Source: a virus. Taken from it: DNA of 30,528 bases. The stretch covers positions 1 through 30,528 of the IMG/VR virus record IMGVR_UViG_3300010151_000089; one strand, given 5' to 3'. Made by a program: the position numbers and the translations under genes. Below the pieces are notes generated by a model. It was given only the letters and a program-made list of their open reading frames with translations, did not search any database and was not told the origin of the DNA. Of this stretch, positions 8,072 to 14,617 are shown one piece after another (the stretch's first letter is position 1; the number at the start of each line of letters is the position of its first letter).

Positions 8072-9484
8072 TTACCGTCCGGGTTTTCGATGTTCCATTG
8101 CAGCAATACGGCTAGCCGTCCTAGTGTTTTCATCACCCAATTTCTTAATTGCTTTCGTAATAATTCCACCAAACTCATCCAACTTCTTTTTAAAATCAGA
8201 GCCGTCTAATTGTTCAGCTAGTGCCGCTTGAATAGCCTCTGAAGAATCCTCTACCGCCTTTGATACCACATTTATCATTCCTTGGCCGGCAGTCGCGGTC
8301 ATCTGTTTCAATCCCGCGACGGCTTGGCCTTGGGGTAGGCCGGCCATGGCGCCGCCAAGGGCCATTCGTTCGGCGCCGCTTGTTCCAAATGTGCCGGCGA
8401 GCATCTTGTCCATTCCAGTCATCCGTTGTGCTAAAGTCCTTTCTTGTGCAGCGCCCATCGGCCCGGGCACACCACCGCCCGCTAATTGATTTGCATCAAA
8501 GTTGATCAGCTTTCTAACTTGTGTCGGCCCAAAGCCGGCTTGACTAAAAGCGTTCATATAAGCACGTTGGACGCGTGGGGCGGCGCTCTTCAGCCTAGGC
8601 GCTACTTTCTGAATGGATTGAACAATGTAATTCATTCTTTCCGGGTAATCCATCGCAGATGCCTTCACCGCGTCAAAGCTGCCGCCCAGCGAAGTAAGTA
8701 CAGCGTTTAGTTGTGCGCCGGTCTGTTGGGCTGTGTCGAGATTCTCAAATTTTTTCATGATATCCATCAAGCCGCCCATTTCCATTCCCATAGCTCGGGC
8801 GCGCCTCTGGAACATAAAAGCATTCTTTTGGGCGGCGGCATTGTCTAAATTATCATGAAACAGGTGCATGTTGGCAGCCATGTCCTTAAAAATTCGATTA
8901 ACATCCTGTCCGGTGTTGACAGCAAAGTTGGTCATTGTTCTTCCGAATGTCATTATTTCTCTCGTTGACATTCCCATGGTAGTATCAAAGTCATTTATCA
9001 TCTTTGTTGAAGTGCCGATCTCAACGCCAAGCCTTTGCCATATCAGTGTTTGATTAAGTAATTGCCCTTGGGTTTTTTCAAACCCTTTCCGCACGCGTGT
9101 GGCCAACATTGTTGATAAGTCATTAAATCGGGTTGTGGTCTGCTCTAAGTTGAAGCCCAAGTCTCTAACACGAAGGCTGTATTTAGCTATCTGATTAAGC
9201 GCTTCTGATTGTGCCTTGGTGTTGTTGGCAAAAGCAGCGTTACTGTCTGAAAGCTTGACATTAAGCCTATCAATGTATTCTATATAAGATTCATTTGGTC
9301 TTGCTTTGCCGGTGTCGCTTTTGGCCGATTTCTTGCCGGCTGCGATGTTCTTTTCTAGTTTAGCTACGGCCCGGGCCGCCTTAGTCTTTTCGGTGCCGCT
9401 TAGGCCGCCCATAAGCGCTTTGGCTTTAGCGACCTCGCCATTTTGGATTGCCTCAAGAAATTGCCCGTATTGCGTCAATGCCAT
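8072..9484 (-). CDS. Tape-measure protein candidate (gp29-like position)
   Basis: A 470-residue, mostly helical, Ala- and Gln-rich protein. The N-terminal 70 residues are basic and helical, residues 95-330 carry long amphipathic helices (for example TTTRFNDLSTMLATRVRKGF), residues about 335-400 are a Gly/Ala/Met-rich, mildly hydrophobic segment (AGGGVPGPMGAAQ, ALGGAMAGLPQG), and a charged helical end follows. This is the composition of tail tape-measure proteins, which set tail length and line the tube. It sits directly after the probable tail-assembly-chaperone frameshift pair, the usual tape-measure location. It is short for a myovirus (T4 gp29 is about 590 residues), so a short tail or a split tape-measure function is possible. 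GAGG precedes the ATG. Confidence 0.65.
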   Translation of the reverse strand: MALTQYGQFLEAIQNGEVAKAKALMGGLSGTEKTKAARAVAKLEKNIAAGKKSAKSDTGKARPNESYIEYIDRLNVKLSDSNAAFANNTKAQSEALNQIAKYSLRVRDLGFNLEQTTTRFNDLSTMLATRVRKGFEKTQGQLLNQTLIWQRLGVEIGTSTKMINDFDTTMGMSTREIMTFGRTMTNFAVNTGQDVNRIFKDMAANMHLFHDNLDNAAAQKNAFMFQRRARAMGMEMGGLMDIMKKFENLDTAQQTGAQLNAVLTSLGGSFDAVKASAMDYPERMNYIVQSIQKVAPRLKSAAPRVQRAYMNAFSQAGFGPTQVRKLINFDANQLAGGGVPGPMGAAQERTLAQRMTGMDKMLAGTFGTSGAERMALGGAMAGLPQGQAVAGLKQMTATAGQGMINVVSKAVEDSSEAIQAALAEQLDGSDFKKKLDEFGGIITKAIKKLGDENTRTASRIAAMEHRKPGR

Positions 9485-9526: not shown

Positions 9527-9693
9527 TTAACTTTCGTCTTTCGCCGAGTCTTCAAAGAATTTTATCATGCGCTGAAAGAACCAGTCGCGCAGCTTAATCG
9601 GAAGGGCATAAAGCTCAAAAAAGTTCCAATTGCCCTTTTGTTTCATATAAAAGAACAACTCATATACGCTGTCAATATACTCACTCGTCAGGC
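9527..9693 (-). CDS. Frameshift extension of the gp26-like protein (tail assembly chaperone T-part)
   Basis: In the +1 frame relative to the upstream gene, a sequence of about 55 residues starts at the T7 run (9701-9695) and reads GLTSEYIDSVYELFFYM, then GNWNFFELYALPIKLRDWFF, ending in FEDSAKDES. It is aromatic and amphipathic like the short partner proteins that follow T4_baseplate-family genes. No Met in this frame has a Shine-Dalgarno, and the frame is open for 107 bases into the upstream gene, so independent initiation looks unlikely. Slippage at the T7 run would fuse it to the upstream protein as a product of about 321 residues. Its place between the tube and tape-measure genes is where lambda G/GT-type chaperone frameshifts occur. 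A sequencing indel in the run is the main alternative. Confidence 0.55.
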
Positions 9694-10493
9694 CAAAAAA
9701 AGTCTGCCAAAACAGGCACAACCCCCTTGTTTTCGTATTCACAGTTTGTACACACAACTTCATATATAAAATCAATATCTGGTACAATTTGAGAATATTT
9801 TCTTTTCAAAAATAAGGAATCGGTGATTGGTAATTTTGAAACAAAGTCATTTATGACCAAAATGTTTTCAGCGCCATTTACTGAAACTATCAGTTGGCGA
9901 AGCCGATCAGAAGCTAAAGTCTCTGGTAAGTTATGTTGTGCCTTCTGTTTGGCCCTTGTTTCTATCTCTTCTTCATCTTCGCTAGTTAAAAACTTAAGCT
10001 CTACGTTAGCTTGGGTTTTTGGTAGTTTGACGACAAACGTACCTCTGTCGGTGAATTGTACACCTTCTTGGTTGTTCTCTTTTATTCCAACAGCGCCTAA
10101 ATCGACTGTATGTTTATTGGGGTGATCACATATCGCACACGATATTTGGATTTTATATTCCGAACCATAAGCGTTTTTTCTAGCGTTTATTAAAATAGCG
10201 CTTTTATCACCCGGCAATAGAGTATCTGCTTTTACACTTTTTATAAGTAAGCTCTCAACAAGTTTATCTATAATCTTACCCTGTTTTGCATATGCCGTAG
10301 ACACCAATATGTCTTCTTCTTTTGTCGTCATAAATCCAATTTCAACCTCTTCAACATTATGAAGCGGGTGCTCTTTGGAATAAAACTTTCCAGCAGATGG
10401 TAGTTTTACTATGTCGGTTGGTGGTGTGTATTGGTGATTTACTTGTGCGGCTGTCTCTGGTATGTTTTGTTTAAGTCTGTCTTGATTTCTCAT
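9681..10493 (-). CDS. 26: T4_baseplate-family protein, gp26-like (baseplate hub / tail assembly chaperone)
   Basis: A 270-residue protein with the family pattern IVKLPSAGKFYSK (28-40), then EVEIGFMTTKEEDIL (49-63), LLPGDKSAILINARKNAYG (92-110), and two CxxC pairs (C119/C122 and C248/C251) that could bind zinc. It ends in FFWPDE. This is the pattern of the family that includes T4 gp26, thought to act in baseplate hub assembly. AGGAG lies 4-5 bases before the ATG, and a short gap separates it from the tube gene. Directly before its stop is a T7 run, and the +1 frame continues as a further 55-residue coding stretch, so two C-terminal forms may be made. Confidence 0.8.
   Translation of the reverse strand: MRNQDRLKQNIPETAAQVNHQYTPPTDIVKLPSAGKFYSKEHPLHNVEEVEIGFMTTKEEDILVSTAYAKQGKIIDKLVESLLIKSVKADTLLPGDKSAILINARKNAYGSEYKIQISCAICDHPNKHTVDLGAVGIKENNQEGVQFTDRGTFVVKLPKTQANVELKFLTSEDEEEIETRAKQKAQHNLPETLASDRLRQLIVSVNGAENILVINDFVSKLPITDSLFLKRKYSQIVPDIDFIYEVVCTNCEYENKGVVPVLADFFWPDE
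9695..9701 (-). other. Candidate slippery site (T7) for +1 or -2 frameshifting
   Basis: The coding strand reads GAC TTT TTT TGG in the zero frame. After decoding TTT, tRNA-Phe can re-pair perfectly on TTT one base downstream, placing GGC CTG in the A-site and entering the long +1 frame; the zero frame stops five codons later at TGA. RNA polymerase slippage on T7 would do the same. The alternative is a one-base insertion or read error in the homopolymer. Confidence 0.5.
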
Positions 10494-10502
10494 TATCTCC
10501 TC

Positions 10503-11045
10503 TTATTTCTTATGATATATCAACTCTGCCCAATCATATGATACCGTAATTGTAATTCCTGTTAAGTCCTGAGAGCTATAACTTACTTCACTAAACTTTG
10601 TATCAGTTACGAAAGCGCCATGTAATTTCCATTCTTCGTACATTTCCCCTTCCGGTGTTAGCATCTGAATGGAAACTCTTCCTAGAGAAGTCATCAAATC
10701 TCTTTTACTAAGATCTTTTAAAGCGGTTTCATCTATATTATCTGGGTAATCATACGCCCTGTCTAATAGTTTCCCCATTGTAAGGGCCGCGATAGTTTCT
10801 TTTACGTCTCTAGAGAATATCTCTCTTATTGTAAAGTTTATTGGATTCCATTTAATTTCTGTTGGGTGATTAAAATAATGATTTAATAATTTGTATGGCG
10901 CTGTGGATATTGTGTACGATGGGCGAGACACATTACTTATATAGGCTACAGGAAAATCATTTATTCTTAAATAAAATCTAAATGATTGTTGAGCTTGTGT
11001 CTCAATTAATCGGTTATTGGTTAGCATTCTATTAGTAATTATCAC
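10503..11045 (-). CDS. Tail tube protein, second copy (gp19-like)
   Basis: A protein of about 180 residues with the gp19 plan: FRFYLRINDFPVAYISNVSRPSYTI near the N-terminus (the FKF.L...D.P...V...GRP pattern, split here across two strands), a middle NFTIREIFSRD segment, and a C-terminal FSEVSYSSQDLTGITITVSYDWA that matches the tube strand pair of its neighbour. It is clearly divergent from the first tube gene. Translation may start at a GTG (11045) that overlaps the upstream TGA (GTGA), or at an ATG at 11027; neither has a good Shine-Dalgarno, so the coupled GTG is annotated. It may be a second tube component or a baseplate-proximal tube initiator rather than the bulk tube subunit. Confidence 0.75.
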   Translation of the reverse strand: MIITNRMLTNNRLIETQAQQSFRFYLRINDFPVAYISNVSRPSYTISTAPYKLLNHYFNHPTEIKWNPINFTIREIFSRDVKETIAALTMGKLLDRAYDYPDNIDETALKDLSKRDLMTSLGRVSIQMLTPEGEMYEEWKLHGAFVTDTKFSEVSYSSQDLTGITITVSYDWAELIYHKK

Positions 11046-11590
11046 TCAGCGGAAAAAACTTCGTGGCTGGCGTAATCAAATGTTAGCGTAACTGTAATAC
11101 TCATTAAATCTTCGCTGTCATATCCGACATCATCGTAGTTGACTTCCTTAACCCAAGCATTCTTTAAAGTCCACTTTTCAACGTCGCGTCCATTTGAATC
11201 GATCGTCTTGATGGCGATGTCGCCCTTGGTCGCGTCGATCGACTTAAGCTTAGAAGGGCTTATTTTCCAACCTTGGTTGTCCATCGTCCATTCTGATGGA
11301 GCAACGTAGCCGGCGTCTTTAAACATTTTAAACATTACAGAAGCAACATCTGGGTCAATGGGATCAACAAGTGTAATTTGTATATCGCCGTATTGAACTC
11401 TGCCCGGGAATTTAAACTCGTGTGCTAAAAACTGATGCGTTGCGCCGGCGGTTAAAGTCAAGCTTGGCCGGCCGGCAGTTTTGACAACCCAAGCTGGAAT
11501 GTCACCAAAACTCAGAATAAATTTAAATTTACGCTTTGGCTCAATATTTGGCGTTTGCCACTGAGGTAACGGTGTTGCTTGTTTTGGCAT
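11042..11590 (-). CDS. 19: Tail tube protein, first copy (gp19-like)
   Basis: A 182-residue protein. KRKFKFILSFGDIPAWVVKT (residues 19-38) followed by AGRPSLTL is the hallmark N-terminal hairpin of T4-type tail tube proteins. It continues with HEFKFPGRVQYGDIQITLVD and ends with WVKEVNYDDVGYDSEDLMSI leading to a TVTLTFDYA strand. Such proteins stack as hexameric rings to form the inner tube around the tape measure. It lies directly downstream of the sheath gene, as in T4, with GGAGA before the ATG and an ACTAATTAC motif 24 bases upstream. The good initiation site suggests this is the major tube subunit. Confidence 0.85.
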   Translation of the reverse strand: MPKQATPLPQWQTPNIEPKRKFKFILSFGDIPAWVVKTAGRPSLTLTAGATHQFLAHEFKFPGRVQYGDIQITLVDPIDPDVASVMFKMFKDAGYVAPSEWTMDNQGWKISPSKLKSIDATKGDIAIKTIDSNGRDVEKWTLKNAWVKEVNYDDVGYDSEDLMSITVTLTFDYASHEVFSAE

Positions 11591-11623: not shown

Positions 11624-14617
11624 TTAATCCTCAAATGCTGCTCCAGTATTTGTGATAATAAAGTCAACAGCAATGAATTCAATTGCTCTAGCAGGCTTTA
11701 AGAACACCTTTGCGTACATAACGTTGCGATCAATTAGATCATCCGTCGTGGTAGTTTTATCCAGTATCAGTTTATAGTCAGTCAGGCCAAAGCGTGCTTT
11801 AACGTCTGCTAAGAACGGCTCTGCTCTGCCGATAAATCTATCCCACGTTTCTTGTACATTCGGCTCAAACAAAATGTCCGAAGCTATTGTAGCAATTCCC
11901 TTCTTGACGAACAACATTAATCTACGAACATTAATTCTGTCCAAAGCACTTCTTGTGATTTGAAGTGTTTTCTGCCCAAAGATCACAATACCTTCATTCG
12001 GGAAGGAAGCAATTGGATTAATGTTCGCATCATAAAGGGTATCTCTTTCTTTCGAAGTCAATTTTTGAGTTACGTTAATTACCGGAAGGCCGGCCGCGCC
12101 GCTTGATAAGCCGCCCCTATTAAAGCCGGCTGGGGCAAACCACGGGGCACGGACACGATCAGTATACGACATTGCGCCGATTCCAGCTACAGAAGGAGGC
12201 ATAAAAACAACATTGCCGTTGATTGTGTCTCTGATCTGTACCCATGGATAATATGCGCAAGCATAACTTGAATTTAGGCCGCGTGCCTTAAGATTAGTAA
12301 CTGTTGTAGAAACAGCGCCATAAGCTTTAGCCGTACTATCTTCCTCTGGTGTGAAGTCACCCTTGAGATCAATTACAGCAAGAGCGTCTGCTCTAGACTC
12401 AACAGTCTCAATCATGTGGTTGGTTAACCCTTCGTGATAGAGCCCGGGCATTGACATCAAGTTGTATTCAGCAAACTCTGGGTCTCTACAAATGTCCATG
12501 GCTTCTTTTGCGCTATTAAAGGCATAATTAGAAAGCTCTGTTTTATCTTCAAGCCCCGAACTTCTAAACTGATCCTTTTCCGTTATATCTAAGCCATCTG
12601 AGCCTCCATATAATAGAGCAGTGAATGAATAAATCTCTTTATCCAAGATGTCCTTATATGAGCCCCCTGAACTGGTGCTATTAAGAGCCTTGCCGGCGTT
12701 TCTGGAGCCCGGTACCCAATAATAATCGCCGGCCGATGCGGTGATACTGGCCGAGGAAACAATTTCATCAAGTGAAAAAGCCCATGAGTGCTCTGTAAAG
12801 TTAGTAGTCGCGGTAAACTGATTTAAACCACTGGCTTTACTCTTAACAAGATCAACAATGTCATCGTTGAATCTACCATTTGTCTTTGTCTTTCCAGTAT
12901 AGGCGCCAAAGTAAGCGTCTTTATTGTTTGAAAGGCCATCTTGTGAAGCGGATATGCGAGCAGGAACTCGTGGGAACAAAAACTTCATCTGCTTCTTAAT
13001 CGCCCGCGATATAGAGCCCGATTGCGCGCCCTTAAATATGCCCACATAAGCATGTGGGGTCGCACCAGTGGTGCCACCAACAATTGGGCTGTTTGTTGCT
13101 GCAACGGCAAAAGAGGCCGAGGTGCTGCCGGTGACGAACGGACTCAGTTCAACCGCCTGATATTTAATCGGTCCAAAAGTGCCAAAAGGTAGGTTTTCCG
13201 CGTTAGTTGAAGCGTTAGAGCCCATCTTTATGCGAATATATTTAGAATTGTTTGGCCATTCGCCCTGCGGTCTTAAAATTCTTTCAGCAGTATCAAATTT
13301 AACATATTGATCGCCAATTTTTCTGGCAACATAATTAATAGAATCTGGATTTAAATTACAGTTGCTAAATCTTTCTAAAACATTTAGTGATTTATCTGTA
13401 TCTTTGAGTGATCTAACCAATACATCAAACTGCCCCCACTTATCAAATTCATCTTTTGAATATTTTATGTTTGTAATAGAAATTTTAATATTATTCTGAG
13501 CCCATTCGCCATGATCAAGAGCAATGAGCTTAAATAACTTTGTCATATTAGCAGGAGCATAAGCAGCCTTCGCGTTGCCGCCGCCCAAGTCTTGTGCAAA
13601 GAAATATCCCGTTTGAGGATTCCCGGTGGTGTCTGCGTCCTGCGCATATGGAGTTTGTCTTATGCCGTGCTCGCCACTGGTGCCGCACTTTAATCCCAGA
13701 ATAACACCCAGATACTTTACCTGCGAGGCGCCGGGGTGGTCCATTGCAGCGCCATGGCTGCCGGTTATTTTTTCTACTGTTTCCACGCCACCAGCAGACA
13801 TAGTTAGATAACTCGTGCCGGCAACTTGGTGTAAAAGAGTATTCTCAAATGTTTCACCCAGCCAATATATTTGCCGATCGGCGGCAACAGTAATGGTATT
13901 ATTAGTCAACGTGGGATTCGTGTTGAAAACTTTTCGAATATAATTTTTATGAGACGGGCCCATATTAAAAGTAATTTTCTTTTCAGCGCTGCCAGCTTTG
14001 ATCAGCGCCGTAAAATTACCAGCCGAATCGGAGCGCATTAACGTTGCGGAACCTGACAAATCGGACACAGTGCTACTGTCTACGTCTTCGCCAATCAGCG
14101 CCATCGAGCCTGAATCGATATACCAAATCGCTGCCAAGGAACCAGTTATTTTGCTTACTCCCGCGATGGGGCCGAAGCCAGTAGTATTAAACATCCACAG
14201 CCCATAAGCGCCGCCGCCGACATTCTGCCCAATCCTAGATGTACTTAAAGCCTCCGACGTTTTCCAGCCGGCTTCGCCGCCGCTAGACTTATTAAGATGC
14301 TCCTTCCCAAGAAGCCTGACAACATTAATGGTTGGTGAATTTTTAAGCCAAGCTTGGGCCGCATAAGAGGCGTAAGTAGGCGCCAATTGGGTGTCATCTC
14401 GCCACGGATCTGAACCTACACCACCGTGTTGTGGTTCGCCAAATACTTCAACAAAATCTGAAAAAGAATCAACTTGAACGGGCCTCATTGCTGGGCCTCT
14501 CAACGTTCTACCAACAACTAGGGGGCCGATGTCTCTTGGCTCGCGGGGCAATTGAGAATTGTCTATTTCATTTAAAAAAATCCCCGGTGAAACAAATCTA
14601 AACTTCTTTGCACTCAT
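11624..14617 (-). CDS. 18: Tail sheath protein (gp18-like), unusually long
   Basis: A 997-residue protein. The N-terminus FVSPGIFLNEIDNSQLPREP and GPLVVGRTLRGPAMRPVQV are the sheath signature, followed by a FVEVFG...GG element and TINVVRLLG. The C-terminal third holds the conserved core (RAPWFAPAGFNRGGL, KERDTLYDANINPIASFPNEG, FGQKTLQ, then RINVRRLMLFVKKGI) and ends with the sheath C-terminal strand AKVFLKPARAIEFIAVDFII. T4 gp18 is about 659 residues, so this one carries some 340 extra residues, mainly around residues 130-560, that would form additional outward domains. It forms the contractile cylinder around the tube. GGGAGA precedes the ATG, and an ACTATTTAC motif lies 31 bases upstream. 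Confidence 0.93.
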   Translation of the reverse strand: MSAKKFRFVSPGIFLNEIDNSQLPREPRDIGPLVVGRTLRGPAMRPVQVDSFSDFVEVFGEPQHGGVGSDPWRDDTQLAPTYASYAAQAWLKNSPTINVVRLLGKEHLNKSSGGEAGWKTSEALSTSRIGQNVGGGAYGLWMFNTTGFGPIAGVSKITGSLAAIWYIDSGSMALIGEDVDSSTVSDLSGSATLMRSDSAGNFTALIKAGSAEKKITFNMGPSHKNYIRKVFNTNPTLTNNTITVAADRQIYWLGETFENTLLHQVAGTSYLTMSAGGVETVEKITGSHGAAMDHPGASQVKYLGVILGLKCGTSGEHGIRQTPYAQDADTTGNPQTGYFFAQDLGGGNAKAAYAPANMTKLFKLIALDHGEWAQNNIKISITNIKYSKDEFDKWGQFDVLVRSLKDTDKSLNVLERFSNCNLNPDSINYVARKIGDQYVKFDTAERILRPQGEWPNNSKYIRIKMGSNASTNAENLPFGTFGPIKYQAVELSPFVTGSTSASFAVAATNSPIVGGTTGATPHAYVGIFKGAQSGSISRAIKKQMKFLFPRVPARISASQDGLSNNKDAYFGAYTGKTKTNGRFNDDIVDLVKSKASGLNQFTATTNFTEHSWAFSLDEIVSSASITASAGDYYWVPGSRNAGKALNSTSSGGSYKDILDKEIYSFTALLYGGSDGLDITEKDQFRSSGLEDKTELSNYAFNSAKEAMDICRDPEFAEYNLMSMPGLYHEGLTNHMIETVESRADALAVIDLKGDFTPEEDSTAKAYGAVSTTVTNLKARGLNSSYACAYYPWVQIRDTINGNVVFMPPSVAGIGAMSYTDRVRAPWFAPAGFNRGGLSSGAAGLPVINVTQKLTSKERDTLYDANINPIASFPNEGIVIFGQKTLQITRSALDRINVRRLMLFVKKGIATIASDILFEPNVQETWDRFIGRAEPFLADVKARFGLTDYKLILDKTTTTDDLIDRNVMYAKVFLKPARAIEFIAVDFIITNTGAAFED

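Follow-up and report, generated by a model that had tools for sequence, protein, structure and literature searches.

Earlier work on phage lambda described the tail assembly chaperone genes G/GT, which lie in the slot between the tube and tape-measure genes (Xu, Hendrix and Duda 2004; reviewed in PMC5009743), and lambda G/GT as well as most other tail chaperones utilize a -1 frameshift (PMC5009743). In the T4-like phages, as far as the work of Vladimirov, Gautam and Davidson (Virology 2022) is relayed in PMC10885494 and PMC12846349, the chaperone exists as a short gene and a longer fusion gene in some phages and is produced by a -1 shift in others. In the same relayed portions, that study seems to cover poly-T -1 sites of T4-like phages, and the reading of T4 gp26/gp51 as a short/long pair is already published there. 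The tail chaperone of the archaeal virus HSTV-2, a myovirus, has been called very likely +1 (PMC5009743). In release factor 2 (RF2, encoded by prfB), a single P-site tRNA slips +1 with an internal Shine-Dalgarno (SD) sequence located 5' of the site, and in experiments with 70S ribosomes in vitro, a hairpin placed upstream, next to the E site, promoted +1 frameshifting and dampened -1 (Huang, Cho and Chang 2018, PMC6321510). Prediction tools, however, have no general motif for forward frameshifts (PMC10885494).

Here, we describe a viral DNA stretch of 30,528 nucleotides (IMG/VR record IMGVR_UViG_3300010151_000089, positions 1 to 30,528; hereafter the window), in which a gp26-like gene of the T4_baseplate family PF12322 ends just past a run of seven Ts (T7) and overlaps a second open reading frame (ORF), named ORFB, in the +1 frame. 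From the sequence comparisons, we give a probability of about 85% to the reading that a programmed +1 frameshift at this locus makes a long tail assembly chaperone. The locus occupies the same slot as lambda G/GT but belongs to a different gene family and would shift +1 instead of -1. It shares its family with the T4-like chaperones, as these are relayed from the 2022 study, and differs from them in a predicted +1 shift with a 5' hairpin; in the direction of the shift and the role of the gene, it resembles HSTV-2. A single slipping P-site tRNA, an internal SD 5' of the site, and the tetramer CUU_U in two clusters of relatives are reminiscent of RF2, whereas the SD of this family lies 20-29 nucleotides (nt) off with a hairpin in between, and a sense codon stands in the A site. 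Strict membership in the RF2 class was rejected, since the P codon has no SD about 3 nt away and the A site no stop codon. The duplex abutting the E site, with +1 favored and -1 attenuated, recalls the construct of PMC6321510; the latter was designed at CUUUGA without RF2, whereas the family described here would supply a natural conserved element with a sense codon. A large +1 lineage with a stem-loop just ahead of the slip site and, farther upstream, an internal SD, both beyond codon-shuffled expectation, is apparently new.

Frame Relation and Conservation of the Slip Site

The gp26-like gene (9681..10493, minus strand) encodes 270 amino acids (aa), which match PF12322 with E 3.5e-14 (53.5 bits against a curated cut-off of 24.5) and the baseplate hub family PHROG_150 with E 1.2e-14. 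On the minus strand, its 3' end reads ...GCA GAC TTT TTT TGG CCT GAC GAG TGA. The T7 slip site (9695..9701) comprises the E codon TTT (9701-9699), the P codon TTT (9698-9696), and the first base of the A-site TGG (9695), and the zero-frame stop TGA (9681..9683) is located four codons past the start of TGG. If one T is skipped, reading restarts at GGC (9694) and runs for 55 codons to a TAA (9529-9527), which lies 42 nt ahead of the ATG (9484) of the next gene. This +1-frame extension, ORFB (9527..9694, minus strand), would be the C-domain of the chaperone, reached only via the shift, and the predicted fusion product has 320 aa. The -1 frame at the T7 of the window closes immediately (FLA, then a stop). 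The first-pass annotation of the window had reported a gp26-like gene ending after GAC TTT TTT TGG with about 55 open codons in the +1 frame, which we confirm on the minus strand; its fusion frame also stands, with a computed length of 320 aa in place of about 321 residues.

A first scan yielded 48 IMG/VR loci, 41 of which reach the end of the gene and, together with the window, make 42 near loci (29 distinct). With the loci from two more scans and eight phage records, the full set comprises 156 loci, which fall into 91 clusters below 75% identity. Cultured relatives include Microcystis phage Mel-JY01, Bacillus phage SP-15, Flavobacterium phage immuto, and Rhodothermus phage RM378. The sequence TTTTTTTGG is invariant at the slip site in 42 of the 42 near loci (29 distinct). 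TTT TTT TGG is retained in every one of them, compared with a TTT share of 75% (345/459) for Phe elsewhere in the genes; the chance of 58 consecutive TTT codons, assuming independence, is P 6e-8. The zero-frame stop follows the beginning of the slip site by six codons in almost every near locus. By cluster (n = 91), ORFB is conserved in the +1 frame in 72, lies in the -1 frame in 11, is unplaced in seven, and lies in the zero frame in one, a weak case that is probably spurious. No in-frame fusion at T6 or T8 was found among the +1-group relatives. The retained zero-frame stop, T-run, and overlap, which the alignment proposed at the outset was to look for, are present in all near relatives.

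The ORFB frame of the window has TTG/ATG triplets upstream, so a start in this frame cannot be denied from the window alone. In six relatives (L006, L009, L017, L037, L042, and L044), a stop closes the +1 frame 8 nt ahead of the slip site, and the first start codon appears only at +10 to +88, except for an ATG at -8 in L006. Because the frame is closed and lacks an early start, independent initiation of the whole ORFB is impossible in most of these six. The original statement that the downstream frame has no usable start cannot be made from the window alone; it holds in several near relatives.

Slip Codons and Probable Direction of the Shift

The E-P-A codons of the 72 +1 clusters are TTT TTT TGG in 51, TTT TTT TAC in 11, and TTT CTT TGG in two, while CTT TTT TGG, TTC TTT TAC, TTT TTT TTC, TTT TTT TAT, TTT TTT CAC, CTG TTT CGC, AAC TTT CTA, and TTC TTT CGT are each seen in a single cluster. 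The A-site codon is accordingly TGG in 54 clusters, TAC in 12, and others in six. Common to these sites is a P codon UUU or CUU with a pyrimidine as the next base, which allows re-pairing of the P-site tRNA one base forward. This YTT-then-Y pattern served to select the sites (that of L025 was set to TTT TTT TGG), but in the alignment they share the position ahead of the W/Y-P motif. Two of the variants have known counterparts: CUU_U is the shift tetramer of RF2 (PMC5009743) and UUU_CGU is the +1 site of influenza PA-X (PMC3498833). In addition, the base preceding the T7 run is a T in only 2 of 64 clusters, compared with 36.5% at third positions (P 1.7e-10), and the -1 heptamer U_UUU_UUU is therefore destroyed.

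The relatives with TTT CTT TGG, TTC TTT TAC, AAC TTT CTA, and TTC TTT CGT retain the +1 relation. Since a -2 slip and a slip of the transcript both need a homopolymer, which is absent from several distant +1 sites, the codon comparison favors +1 slippage of the P-site tRNA over either. The first-pass annotation had left the choice at "+1 or -2"; its first option gains from these distant relatives without a long T-run, and its second loses.

The 5' Hairpin and the Internal SD

In the window, a stem-loop, TGCC-TGTTTT-GGCA (9705..9718, minus strand), stands 3 nt ahead of the T7 run, and an internal SD-like AGGGGG (9722..9727, minus strand) lies 5' of it; in most relatives possessing such an element, it is GGAGG. 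We folded 24-nt segments against codon-shuffled controls preserving the protein and the codon usage of the gene. The hairpin region of the window has -6.4 kcal/mol (codon-shuffle p 0.028). Across all 72 +1 clusters, over-stability is confined to the 24-nt segment that adjoins the E codon on its 5' side, with a mean z of -1.21 and 57% of clusters below -1, whereas the 18 segments farther upstream have mean z values between -0.33 and +0.13. The near group alone reaches a mean z of -2.28 at the same place. No structure was seen downstream of the slip site in the +1 clusters (z -0.29). The stems vary in sequence and register, with 51 distinct outer stems, such as GTGCCC..GGGCAC, GTCCC..GGGAC, GTCTC..GAGAC, and GTTCC..GGAAC.

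Two other origins of the hairpin were considered and rejected. A by-product of the P-x-G protein motif does not account for a signal that persists against protein-preserving codon shuffles. An intrinsic terminator formed by the hairpin and T7 is at odds with the AAC TTT CTA locus L049, which keeps a strong hairpin without a long T-run, and with the weakness of the stems, which have 4-7 base pairs.

Excess pairing with the anti-SD is confined to the interval -36..-18 relative to the E codon (mean z -1.17, 72 clusters), where GGAGG occurs 0.54 times per 60 nt as against 0.025 elsewhere in the gene. GGAGG is placed mainly at two positions, in two codon phases, and an SD core is present in 43 of the 72 clusters. 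Only with the hairpin looped out would the distance between SD and P codon shrink to 1-8 nt, as calculated for 25 of 33 clusters.

Conservation of the two elements, together with the precedents of RF2 and PMC6321510, makes it likely that hairpin and SD act as stimulators of the +1 shift. Several observations weigh against this assignment. A strong SD core is absent from 29 of the 72 clusters, and the spacing from SD to P codon is not constant, being mostly 20-22 or 29 nt. Fixed-register covariation in the stems is modest (P 0.008, 0.03, and 0.09 in 35 P-x-G clusters). The hairpin is not universal, as both TTT CTT TGG clusters, the TTC TTT CGT cluster, and RM378 are without a clear adjacent one. 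Furthermore, the z-scores come from related clusters and are not independent tests.

A Flavobacterium phage (L050) and its relative L126, which carry the RF2-like TTT CTT TGG, show no 5' hairpin signal (z +0.92); perhaps CUU_U needs less help.

The -1 Sister Lineage

In P-SSM2, S-PM2, HTVC008M (Pelagibacter), phiM12 (Sinorhizobium), and KVP40 (Vibrio), a single PF12322 gene is followed by ORFB in the -1 frame, with the slip site T_TTT_TTC/T. The same relation, T_TTT_TTC with ORFB in -1, was found in 80 of 80 further cyanophage-type loci. An SD core was detected in 74 of these loci and ends 10-11 nt ahead of the slip codon; no hairpin precedes the slip site (z 0.10), and a strong structure follows it (z -3.04, in 21 of 23 representatives). 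These folding comparisons place the structure on the 3' side of the slip site in the -1 lineage and on the 5' side in the +1 lineage, as the in vitro hairpin result would predict.

One gene family would thus offer a matched natural contrast, with 3' structure and a canonical SD on the -1 side and a 5' hairpin on the +1 side, in which the forward push that a 5' duplex gives to ribosomes in vitro becomes testable in natural genes. We put forward only tentatively the broader idea that SD and E-site hairpin form one composite signal, in wide natural use, in which the hairpin shortens the path from SD to P site to approximately RF2-like spacing ("split SD") and the 5' or 3' position of the structure sets the direction of the shift. 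The contrast between the two sides would also give a recognizable signal for forward frameshifts.

In P-SSM2 (L199) and S-PM2 (L200), gp51 is annotated as a separate gene of 57 aa, and cyanophage gp51 has been described as being without the first ~200 residues (Sullivan 2010, PMC3037559). Very probably, the separate cyanophage gp51 is the extension that a -1 frameshift adds to gp26. It looks truncated, and the missing residues would very probably be those of the upstream gp26, joined by the -1 shift.

Other members of the family also have ORFB in the -1 frame: eight loci of jumbo-phage type and others (L055, L056, L145, L149, L151, L155, L156, and L164) carry T_TTT_TTT/A/C sites, and the direction of the shift seems to have changed several times within the family. 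In L116, ORFB scores well in -1, yet the site is AAT TTC TTC TGG without a classical slip site, which would reflect an assembly error or another mechanism. The loci L158-L162, which form one cluster, end in AGT TTC TTC TGG, with no slip site and no ORFB detected.

Homology with T4 gp26 and gp51

T4 gp26 and gp51 both match PF12322 (E 8.8e-64 and 3.9e-52, respectively), and gp51 has a C-terminal extension. ORFB alone has no match in Pfam or PHROGs. In hhalign comparisons, all with single-comparison E-values, ORFB aligned with cyanophage gp51 (Prob 96.7, E 3.9e-10) and cyanophage gp51 aligned with the tail of T4 gp51 (Prob 97.4, E 1.4e-11), while the direct comparison of ORFB with the T4 gp51 tail was weak (Prob 47.5, E 1.9e-4). 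Both domains are thus homologous to those of T4 gp26/gp51, with ORFB linked to the gp51 tail via cyanophage gp51. Two copies of PF12322 are also present in 44RR, phiKp_23, and CP220. In a quick tree, the T4 and 44RR copies adjoin the -1 cyanophage group (Shimodaira-Hasegawa-like approximate likelihood ratio test, SH-aLRT, 80 and 85), and at least six changes of state are required, with long branches that leave the details unsure.

The AlphaFold model of the gp26-like protein has a predicted local distance difference test (pLDDT) value of 89, and Foldseek matches it to T4-like hub proteins, themselves predicted models (BFVD). A fold search of the PDB with this model gave no significant match; the HK97 tail assembly chaperone 2ob9 came at rank 24 (E 3.2, TM-score 0.46 by target length).

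The locus stands between tube and tape-measure genes, the former assigned by PHROG and the latter by position, and a second frame overlapping the 3' end of the gene is conserved together with the slip site. The chaperone slot named in the first-pass annotation agrees with both the gene order and the gene family. By slot and gp51 homology, we identify the locus as the putative tail assembly chaperone, in a short and a long form, of a T4-type phage with a contractile tail. The genomes of a large uncultivated phage group are, in that case, likely misannotated at the chaperone locus.

Proposed Mechanism and Alternative Explanations

From the frame relation, slip site, hairpin and SD signals, and homology observed in the genomes, we infer the chaperone function as well as the occurrence and efficiency of the shift. 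Most ribosomes would stop at the TGA and yield the short, gp26-like form, the N-domain alone, while some would skip one base forward at the T7 and produce the longer protein. The stem-loop, re-forming beside the E site during passage of the ribosome, and the internal SD 5' of it may favor this forward slip and simultaneously oppose backward slips, and the avoidance of T before the run would further disfavor a -1 slip. On the model of lambda G/GT, coating of the tape-measure protein would fall to the short form and recruitment of the tube protein to the long form.

The fusion might instead arise if RNA polymerase dropped one U at the T7, aided by the hairpin, with normal translation following. 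A hairpin by a T-run does resemble the stem-loop-mediated slippage of the Roseiflexus IS630 element, which is also a one-base deletion (PMC5009743), and the invariance of T7 in the near relatives counts for it as well. However, the +1 frame is kept at the four variant sites with runs of only 3-4 Ts, the hairpin of L049 remains strong at one of them, the codon phase of the T-run is constant, and the SD has no evident role in transcription; a repeat run by a hairpin, which the Roseiflexus type would show in all members, is missing from L049, L053, and L122, where the run is not long. We consider slippage of the transcript improbable. Still less probable is -2 ribosomal frameshifting as in phage Mu, in which the P-site tRNA re-pairs two bases back and one extra residue is added. 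It reaches the same frame, and the seven Ts let the Phe-tRNA re-pair in this way, but such re-pairing is impossible at TTT CTT TGG, TTC TTT TAC, and AAC TTT CTA, where the frame relation is kept, and a 5' duplex without 3' structure fits +1.

About as improbable as the -2 shift is a reading of ORFB as a gene in its own right, whose translation would begin by re-initiation or at a separate start. Its cyanophage counterpart is annotated as gene 51 with an ATG, and LR756511 (L052) shows a TAATG overlap; several near relatives, however, have no start codon between the upstream stop and the conserved body of ORFB, the invariance of the slip site would have no reason, and T4 gp51 combines these two domains in one protein. 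A homopolymer sequencing error or a decayed gene has a negligible probability. The first-pass annotation had named a read error as the main alternative, and T7 is an error-prone context, but the same T7 and frames recur in dozens of independent assemblies and in the isolate genomes of Microcystis phage Mel-JY01 and Rhodothermus phage RM378, and ORFB is conserved; the alignments refute this explanation. The programmed +1 frameshift thus remains our preferred reading.

Neighboring Genes

Directly upstream of the chaperone gene are two tail-tube paralogues on the minus strand (10503-11045 and 11042-11590), which match PHROG_4542 (E 1.2e-15 and 2.7e-22, respectively) and PF06841 and overlap each other by 4 nt. 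The gene directly downstream (8072..9484, minus strand) stands in the tape-measure slot and is assigned by position only; its short product of 470 aa has no significant Pfam or PHROG match. The tail sheath gene, farther upstream (11624-14617), is unusually long at 997 aa, with the sheath-family match confined to the C-terminal third, which suggests a large insertion or extension. Beside the tail genes, at 1144-2328, lies a gene for a short protein that resembles family A DNA polymerases (394 aa, PF00476, E 1.3e-14).
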